Below the pieces are notes generated by a model. The model was not told the origin of the DNA. It did not search any database and saw nothing but the letters and a program-made list of their open reading frames with translations. Both the position numbers and the translations under genes were made by a program. This document shows, piece after piece, positions 8,417-10,618 of a DNA stretch of 33,198 nt (position 1 is its first letter; the number at the start of each line of letters is the position of its first letter). Origin of the DNA: a bacterium (GTDB taxonomy: Bacteria > UBA10199 > JADGCS01). The stretch covers positions 1-33,198 of the forward strand of contig JAHJDR010000067.1 in the NCBI GenBank assembly GCA_018812345.1, given 5' to 3'.

Positions 8417-9793
8417 TTAGAAGATTAAATTTGGGTTTTTAGGTGCCGTGGTTAGTTTTTCTTTGTATTCCTCAAATCCTTTTCTTTCCATTAAGCCAAA
8501 TGTGAATTGTTTAATGCGTTCTACGGCGGGCTGGTCAAAGGCGTTGATGTTTAATAATGTGCCCATGTAAGGTATGACGTTCATGAAGAGCTGGTACAGC
8601 TGTCCGAGTTGATATTCGTTTATTGTTGTGAGTTTAATTGTGCCATTCGGTCTATTGTTTTCTCTGAGCGTTTCTTCTGTGGCTGTTTTTTCAGCAGCCA
8701 TGAGTTCTTGAAGTGTTTTACCGGCAAGAAAATCAATGCGCTCATCACCCATTTTTTCTTCATTGAGCAAGCCTTGCGTTGTAAAGTCTTCAACATCAAC
8801 AAAATAGATGAGTTTGTCTTTGGGGCCTTCAAGATACAATTGTAATTGTGAGTGTTGATCGGTGACTCCTACACTCTTGATAGGTGTGGAACCAATAAAC
8901 TTTTCATCCCCATTAACAGTGTAGCGTTTACCAAGAGATTCTCCCCAAAGTTGTGCAAACCAATCAGAAAATAATTTTAATCGCTCAGAATAAGGTAGCA
9001 TAACAACCTGTGAAAGGTTGTTTTCTTGCATGAGAGAGTGTGTGCACAAGGCAAATAAGGCTGCTGGGTTTTGTGCTAATATGTTTTGGCGACAGGCTTG
9101 TTCGCAATGGTAGGCGCCTTCTAATAGTGCGGCAATATCAATACCAGCCATAGCAAGTGGGAATAAACCCACTGAAGTGAAAACAGAAAATCGGCCACCC
9201 ACACCAGGAGGTACGGGAAGGCTAGGAAGATTGTTGTTTGTGGTTAGCTCACGTAAAAAACCTTTTTCAGGGTCAGTGATCATAAAAAATTGAGAAGGTT
9301 TATTCGCGAAAAACTTTTTAATAAATAAATATTGGGCCAGTGTTTCTGATGTGGCGCCTGATTTGGAGATAACAATAAACATGTTTTTATCATCTTTTAT
9401 GAGCGAGAGAAGTTCTGTTAAACTATCTGGCTCAATATAGTCGATGACATAAAGGCGTGGCGCATTTTTGTGTGTTAAGCGAAGGGCATTGCCAAAGGGG
9501 CCTTTTAAGGCGTAATAAATGGAAGCTGTACCCAGAGCTGATCCCCCAATACCTAAGACCACAATATTATCTATGTCTTGATAACGAGCCGCTTCCTTTT
9601 TTATGTCATCGCATAGGAGAGACTCTTCAGGAAGGGAAGAATAGGGGAGTGAGCCCGTTTGTTTTAAGGCCATGATGGCCTGGTGCATTTCTTTAAACGG
9701 CATTTCTAGGCTTTGTATGTCTTTGAGGCCATTAGAGATGGCAGGTTGAAATATATTATTTAAATCGAGGGTAATTTTATGACGTTCTTTCAT
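8417..9793 (-). CDS. pgi: Glucose-6-phosphate isomerase
   Basis: The enzyme interconverts glucose 6-phosphate and fructose 6-phosphate in glycolysis and gluconeogenesis. Recognisable parts are VVLGIGGSALG in the first SIS domain, VISKSGATSETLAQY for phosphate binding, and the family signature region PPGVGGRFSVFTSVGLFP. With the ATG at 9793 the protein has 458 residues, the short bacterial form. An in-frame TTG lies five codons upstream (9806-9808); neither has a Shine-Dalgarno. I prefer the ATG because the extra residues (MYSPP) are not family-like. It is transcribed away from a repeat-rich gap. Enolase further along serves the same pathway but is not in an operon with it. Confidence 0.95.
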   Translation of the reverse strand: MKERHKITLDLNNIFQPAISNGLKDIQSLEMPFKEMHQAIMALKQTGSLPYSSLPEESLLCDDIKKEAARYQDIDNIVVLGIGGSALGTASIYYALKGPFGNALRLTHKNAPRLYVIDYIEPDSLTELLSLIKDDKNMFIVISKSGATSETLAQYLFIKKFFANKPSQFFMITDPEKGFLRELTTNNNLPSLPVPPGVGGRFSVFTSVGLFPLAMAGIDIAALLEGAYHCEQACRQNILAQNPAALFALCTHSLMQENNLSQVVMLPYSERLKLFSDWFAQLWGESLGKRYTVNGDEKFIGSTPIKSVGVTDQHSQLQLYLEGPKDKLIYFVDVEDFTTQGLLNEEKMGDERIDFLAGKTLQELMAAEKTATEETLRENNRPNGTIKLTTINEYQLGQLYQLFMNVIPYMGTLLNINAFDQPAVERIKQFTFGLMERKGFEEYKEKLTTAPKNPNLIF

Positions 9794-9845
9794 GGGGGGT
9801 GAATACAATGAATAAGGTAGTTTGACGAGATATTTTTTGTATTTG

Positions 9846-9936
9846 TCATTCCCGTCCGCCTAAGGCGGAGCAATCCAGGTCCCGTCATTGCGAGCGAAGC
9901 GCGGCGCGCAAAGGAAGTGCCCTTGGGGTTCAATCC
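9846..9936. repeat. Left arm of composite inverted repeat (two REP-like units)
   Basis: The outer unit (9846-9879) begins TCATTCCCG, holds the perfect palindrome TCCGCCT-A-AGGCGGA at 9855-9869 and ends CAATCCAGG. The inner unit (9884-9936) begins GTCATTGCGAGCGAAGCG and ends CAATCC. Both resemble palindromic repeat families common in proteobacterial genomes. Inverted relatives of both lie at 10038-10106. Confidence 0.75.
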
Positions 9937-9951
9937 TGGGCTGTTGTACAT

Positions 9952-10028
9952 AATTGACAATTGACGATTTGCAATAAGCAATTTGCAATTGAGGTTGCCA
10001 ATAGCTAATTGTCATTAGCATATTGTCA
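9952..10028. repeat. Long degenerate 7-bp tandem array (11 units)
   Basis: Eleven consecutive heptamers keep exact phase from 9952. The first six fit AATTGAC or AATTTGC; after two transitional units the last three fit ATTGTCA or TTAGCAT, close to the reverse complement of the first group. The array therefore has internal inverted symmetry and lies at the centre of a larger inverted repeat. Confidence 0.8.
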
Positions 10029-10037
10029 ATCATGCTT

Positions 10038-10106
10038 GAATTGCTTCACCATTCGCTACGCTCAGGTTCGCAATGGTATACTGGATCCCTACTTTTGCAG
10101 GGATGA
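10038..10106. repeat. Right arm of composite inverted repeat (two REP-like units, inverted)
   Basis: Bases 10038-10075 (GAATTGCTTC ... TTCGCAATGG) read, on the minus strand, as a relative of the inner left unit with CATTGCGA and GAAGCAATT at its ends. Bases 10081-10106 hold CTGGATCCCT and AGGGATGA, the minus-strand form of the outer left unit; ATCCCT at 10085-10090 pairs with AGGGAT at 10099-10104. Confidence 0.75.
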
Positions 10107-10153
10107 TTTGCCAAACTCTTGCATCTAAACAAAATATTCTTTATGAGGTTTGT

Positions 10154-10618
10154 ATGTCGTTAAACAGCCAAGAAAACCAACGCATCATGGCTCTCGACGT
10201 GGGCTCAAAAACCTGTGGCATCGCCATGACAGATCCAATGGCAATCATTTGTCAACCTGTGACAACGATTACCTATAAAGGGATTGGGGATGAGGGGCGT
10301 GTTTTTGAGGCTCTCAGAGTTCTTTTTGTAGAGACAGAGCCAAAAACAATTGTGGTTGGGCAGCCCTCAAAAACAGATGGGTCTGAAAGCAAGCAGGCAA
10401 AAAAAATACAAACATTTATTGTGGGTTTAAAAAAATATTTAAAATCACATCATGTGAAACCAGATCTTTTTGAATGGGTATATTGGGACGAGTCCTTTAC
10501 CTCAACAGAGGCGCATGCATTCCTAAAAGAGCTTTCAGTTAAACATGCCAAAAGGAAGAAGGTCATTGATAAGATGGCTGCTGTAATCATATTACAAAAT
10601 TATCTAGACTCCCTTTAA
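10154..10618 (+). CDS. ruvX: Putative pre-16S rRNA nuclease / Holliday junction resolvase YqgF (RuvX)
   Basis: The ATG at 10154 has GAGG at 10145-10148, giving 154 residues, normal for YqgF. The upstream part of the open frame translates repeats and is left out. The RNase H-like fold is shown by MALDVGSKTCGIAMTD, with its catalytic Asp, then TIVVGQP and the C-terminal DESFTSTEAHAFL with VIDKMAAVIILQNYL, matching the family's 'DER..T..A' and 'D..AA..ILQ.YL' motifs; here Arg of DER is replaced by Ser. In Escherichia coli the protein matures the 5' end of 16S rRNA. The last bases overlap the stop of the convergent MscS-like gene. Confidence 0.92.
   Translation: MSLNSQENQRIMALDVGSKTCGIAMTDPMAIICQPVTTITYKGIGDEGRVFEALRVLFVETEPKTIVVGQPSKTDGSESKQAKKIQTFIVGLKKYLKSHHVKPDLFEWVYWDESFTSTEAHAFLKELSVKHAKRKKVIDKMAAVIILQNYLDSL

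Follow-up and report, generated by a model that had tools for sequence, protein, structure and literature searches.

The divergent pgi-ruvX interval, between two housekeeping genes, carries a composite block at 9845-10106 in which two dimers of REP sequences are nested one inside the other around a heptad-built core. The layered structure is real and combines known parts in an unusual way, and its core is most likely a miniature, non-autonomous element that entered the spacers of REP dimers. The window, meaning the whole stretch of 33,198 nucleotides analyzed, is contig C311 of a 3.06-Mb draft genome in 435 contigs (G000). The components of the block follow one another in the order outer, inner, core, inner' and outer':

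9845..9879, + strand: outer REP, CGTC-type, GTCATTCCC...CAATCCAGG
9884..9939, + strand: inner REP of the GTCATTGCGA type, with a degenerate tail, CAATCCTGG, and an enlarged loop
9940..9947, no strand: short spacer from the inner REP tail to the core
9948..10034, + strand: heptad core, a subfamily I copy of the 87-bp dispersed element, ACATGATTG...CAATCATG
10035..10076, - strand: inner' REP of the GTCATTGCGAACC...GGTGAAGCAATCCAG type, degenerate
10081..10106, - strand: outer' REP, TCATCCCTGC...GGGATCCAG, which pairs with the outer REP in the DNA fold
8417..9808, - strand: pgi, flanking gene (Pfam PF00342)
10154..10618, + strand: ruvX, flanking gene (Pfam PF03652), start taken as 10154

The open ruvX frame extends upstream past its likely start, reaching back to 10073 within the inner' REP (10073-10153). 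No Rfam family reached its gathering threshold, and the search for a promoter or terminator role returned nothing beyond weak consensus matches.

Both the outer and the inner units belong, in degenerate form, to the CGTC-type REPs (GTCAT..ATCCAG) and make up two nested heterodimers, outer/outer' and inner/inner', each an inverted pair with its ATCCAG-like tails facing inward. Loops and stems differ between the partners in both layers, with the GTCAT and ATCCAG ends as the main common part, and the inner and outer' copies are degenerate as members of the type. Like CGTC-type REPs elsewhere, these sequences have a CGTC/TGTC tag, a palindromic stem and a CCA tail, occur predominantly as inverted dimers, and have no flanking transposase. 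Each unit has relatives in the genome: the outer REP has a 94% identical sister at G000:C241:6117-6150, part of a core-less dimer, the inner type recurs at C412:13448-13496, and relatives of inner' are found on C169, C290, C291, C369 and C371. A strict REP pattern matched the genome 23 times, and we judged 20 of these matches to be REPs. Most lie in tail-inward pairs, at C169, C241, C283 and C336 and, where the partner is degenerate, at C43, C371, C409 and C357; the strict REPs on C281 and C290 have no visible partner. Where core-less dimers occur in this genome, their spacers measure 14-16 nt in the GTCATTGCGA type and 23 nt in the GTCATCCC type. Both unit families are thus genome-wide repeats found mainly as inverted pairs, rather than units scattered in random orientation with no excess of such pairs, and the layout is therefore not chance; the sequence-only reading, which had seen two REP-like families recurring in reversed order and orientation, was right on this point. 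The REP pattern is also present in many relatives of the same class, and the pairs readable among the matches listed for G019 have spacers of 2-16 nt. At C169:3387-3431 and C172:628-677, the loop of a REP seems to hold another palindrome, a nesting inside one REP.

The center of the block had been read as a heptad array, and it did not grow locally: 9948-10034 represents a single copy of an 87-bp element dispersed through the genome, of which three search queries recovered approximately 50 full or partial copies, a count that is itself approximate. By eye we assigned them to three subfamilies according to their ends: I (CATGATTG/CAATCATG), II (GTTAATGAC/CATGAAC) and III (TTTATTGG/CAATTATT). 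Thirty near-complete copies align nearly gaplessly over 12 heptads. Among 59 other genomes the core had no full match, with a single exact hit of 20 bp, in G040. We also found no match for the core in phages, for the whole block in plasmids, or for one exact pattern in viral contigs, and an origin in mobile genomes was rejected on the basis of these collections. As in MITEs, the core is short, non-coding and dispersed, with terminal inverted repeats (CATGATTG/CAATCATG in subfamily I). Inspection of the flanks of 13 core copies revealed no consistent target-site duplication, and no autonomous element sharing the core ends turned up among the part of the single-end matches examined. Some copies are rearranged. 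Permuted core halves, in the order right half, spacer, left half, occur at C48:1748-1875, C342:79-198 and C365:223-342, with a REP between them at C48, and C254:1-80 and C272:1624-1700 are chimeras in which one core half is swapped for heptads of another family (TTGGATA/ATTGATT).

Cores abut REPs far more often than expected by chance. Nine of the 12 complete subfamily I copies are bordered by a REP on one side or on both, its tail towards the core (C311, C172, C275, C357, C343, C291, C336, C219 and C369); the other three are C240 and both copies at C335. A copy intermediate between subfamilies I and II, at C45, has one abutting REP. Spacing is nearly fixed. On the left, the distance from the ATCCAG-like tail to ACATG is 8, 8, 8, 8, 8 and 9 nt in the six subfamily I copies with a close left REP, the 9-nt case being the copy in the window, and on the right it is approximately 1 nt in all seven subfamily I copies that have a right REP, some with degenerate tails. 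In total, a core is found within 25 bp of 8 of the 20 strict REPs, whereas random intergenic placement would give 0.52 (binomial P ~2e-8, a guide only, as the 25-bp limit was chosen after seeing the data and the core count is approximate). These observations uphold two proposals made from the sequence alone, that the block was assembled in layers and that there is a preferred target. It is mainly subfamily I that shows this association: a REP lies close by at C412 and C48 in subfamily II, none abuts a subfamily III copy, and abutting REPs are missing from many copies, among them most of subfamily II and the whole of subfamily III. REPs on both sides of a core are found at C336, C357, C275 and in the window; most copies have no REPs, and we saw no long mosaic arrays. 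The mean pairwise alignment score is 0.86 for cores, against 0.37 and 0.41 for the 40-bp flanks and 0.35 for shuffled flanks. Because the cores are alike and their flanks are near the shuffled level, we conclude that cores entered different REP contexts. The spacer of the core-less dimer at C241 (reverse strand) starts with TCTTTGCAA, as does the junction of the core-bearing copy at C343.

Fold prediction, one of the checks proposed along with the layered arrangement, yielded nested stems for 9845-10106 that, as DNA (z -3.6) and as RNA (z -3.0), beat 199 of 200 shuffles. The array had further been said to turn from AATTGAC to its near reverse complement ATTGTCA. This turn is present, but it carries little evidential weight. 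Apart from its middle base, the heptad TTGNCAA equals its own reverse complement, so that such a turn is to a large extent trivial. In the core alignment, Watson-Crick pairing is 67.5% at the best center and 64.6% and 63.5% at centers one heptad off. Compensatory covariation is absent from the core (762 pairs observed versus 765 expected in shuffled columns, z -0.7), and the covariation term of RNAalifold on the core alignment is approximately zero, leading us to reject a selected secondary structure of the core. Given a self-complementary heptad, similar symmetry at other centers and no covariation, the array inversion does not count as independent evidence of a layered palindrome. The terminal repeat of the core (CATGATTG/CAATCATG) is nevertheless real.

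Going by pgi, the closest named relative found is a deltaproteobacterial MAG (60% identity); over the 3.5 kb compared, its sequence is the same as that of the same-family genome G001. In G001, pgi-ruvX synteny is conserved and the composite is absent from the interval. The G001 interval instead holds two small open frames that look like a putative toxin-antitoxin pair, along with 167 bp that are repeated close by in G001. No empty allele was found among strains. With REPs found across the class, the core confined to one genome, and a G001 interval free of the composite, the comparison favors cores having entered REP dimers rather than the reverse, a direction that rests on distant relatives rather than on alleles.

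A further suggestion, that REP mobilization and heptad formation share a mechanism, did not hold. We combined genome-wide searches with a sample of 60 contigs (368 kb, of which 31 kb is intergenic). Across these contigs, matches at lags 7, 14 and 21 are in excess in intergenic but not in coding sequence, and there are 53 arrays of period 7 versus 0 to 14 for periods 5, 6, 8, 9 and 10. The same lag test gave no heptad signal in the same-family G001 (z 0.3). The period-7 arrays are many, degenerate and exclusively intergenic, with unrelated unit sequences, and a non-core heptad array lies within 200 bp of a REP at just 1 of 16 REP loci (C281). Since heptad arrays other than the core are not enriched at REPs, we rejected a shared mechanism. 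Over-representation of heptads is known in other bacteria (PMC4692102).

A link to a RAYT-type Y1 transposase is also unsupported. The genome has six Y1-transposase (Y1_Tnp) genes, and none shows GTCAT..ATCCAG REPs or the core in the adjacent 250-300 bp to either side, as far as the contigs reach (contig ends truncate two of the loci). At least four (C15, C117, C120 and C14) adjoin GGGGTCA-type repeats instead, which leaves RAYT mobilization without support. The composite resembles a REPIN in having an inverted REP doublet capable of forming a hairpin in the predicted fold, but no RAYT flanked by the same REP was found.

We give about even probability to an explanation by three stacked insertions, with subfamily I of the core preferring REP-dimer spacers. 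A tail-inward dimer of CGTC-type REPs (outer/outer') would have come first; a second dimer, of the GTCATTGCGA type (inner/inner'), would then have entered its spacer; and the 87-bp non-autonomous, heptad-built core would finally have entered the spacer of the inner dimer, with subfamily I ends coming to lie approximately 1 nt away from the REP tail on one side and 8-9 nt away on the other. We infer both this order and catalysis of the insertion by an enzyme acting in trans; a hairpin target and the lack of an obvious target-site duplication would be compatible with such an enzyme working by a single-strand (Y1/HUH-like) route. Tentatively, and at somewhat less than even probability, we propose that this gene-less element recognizes the REP-dimer spacer at a measured distance from the tail, independently of REP transposition. 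The 14-23 nt spacers of core-less dimers, however, do not match the 9 nt that remain next to the core, so that clean insertion fails to explain all junctions without the loss of a few bases, and one-sided copies need either a single-REP target or later loss.

The main rival, which we consider rather unlikely, is that REP-core-REP' moves as a single REPIN-like unit of approximately 150 bp and that core-only copies are decayed units. REPINs are REP doublets with a spacer between them (PMC3116915), the copy at C336 gives a good fold when taken as a whole (z -6.3), and a near-fixed spacing of 8-9 and 1 nt with inward tails, being fixed on both sides, fits unit movement too. However, REP classes vary between copies while the cores stay alike, many copies (all of subfamily III, most of subfamily II) have no abutting REP, and none of the Y1 transposases seen has the REPs of the composite beside it. 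It is less probable still that CGTC REPs serve as borders for recombination, a role proposed for Neisseria dRS3, with the core a cassette exchanged between REP pairs. This idea draws on the inclusion of dRS3 among CGTC-1 REPs (PMC3733652) and on Neisseria NIMEs, which combine dRS3 with RS units of 30-160 bp (PMC3898611), but REPs here are few (~20 strict), the two sides often belong to different classes, most core copies have no REP, and clusters of the dRS3 type were not seen.

REPs might instead have inserted preferentially beside pre-existing heptad palindromes, and REP dimers within other palindromes have been described in A. variabilis and H. neapolitanus (PMC3733652). We regard this as improbable: REPs are class-wide whereas cores occur in G000 only among the genomes searched, and REPs lie mainly beside one subfamily, with other heptad arrays not linked to them. 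Hardly credible, finally, is a single inverted duplication of the block by template switching, which the palindromic overall layout would suggest; the arms are different REP variants with mainly their ends in common, and the core is about equally symmetric around other centers, so that this origin is largely refuted.

The composite relates to several known systems. The CGTC-type REP superfamily, which includes Neisseria dRS3 and Rickettsia RPE-4/RPE-6, its dimers and its lack of a dedicated transposase were described by Di Nocera et al. 2013 (PMC3733652), and the dimers here match in their GTCAT tag, short stem, CCA(G) tail, mostly inverted and often heterodimeric arrangement, and in having no dedicated transposase found. 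They differ in two ways: an independent, dispersed element of 87 bp occupies the spacer, and one dimer is nested within another. NIMEs (RS units with dRS3; PMC3898611) likewise pair intergenic repeat units of ~30-160 bp with CGTC-type REPs, but here the core is heptad-built, most copies are REP-free, and long mosaic arrays were not seen. REPINs (Bertels and Rainey 2011, PMC3116915) share inverted REP pairs, a spacer and a predicted hairpin; here there is no REP-flanked RAYT, copies are few and diverged, and the spacer element is independent of the REPs. The REP-targeting insertion sequences IS1397, ISPpu9/10 and ISPsy8 (Tobes and Pareja 2006, PMC1525189) also place mobile DNA at a fixed position relative to REPs, but these are complete ISs inserted within a REP, in contrast to a gene-less 87-bp element between two REPs. 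Heptameric repeats of Xanthomonas (GGGAATC) and Nostoc (PMC4692102) are also intergenic 7-bp units, sometimes in inverted pairs, whereas the heptads here are degenerate and a fixed stretch of 12 is dispersed as a unit.

CGTC-type REPs occur in several phyla with no transposase tied to them, and a miniature element that apparently uses REP-dimer spacers would give a handle on the structure that is recognized. With dimers that have and lack the core present in one genome, the series could be ordered in time given strain data.
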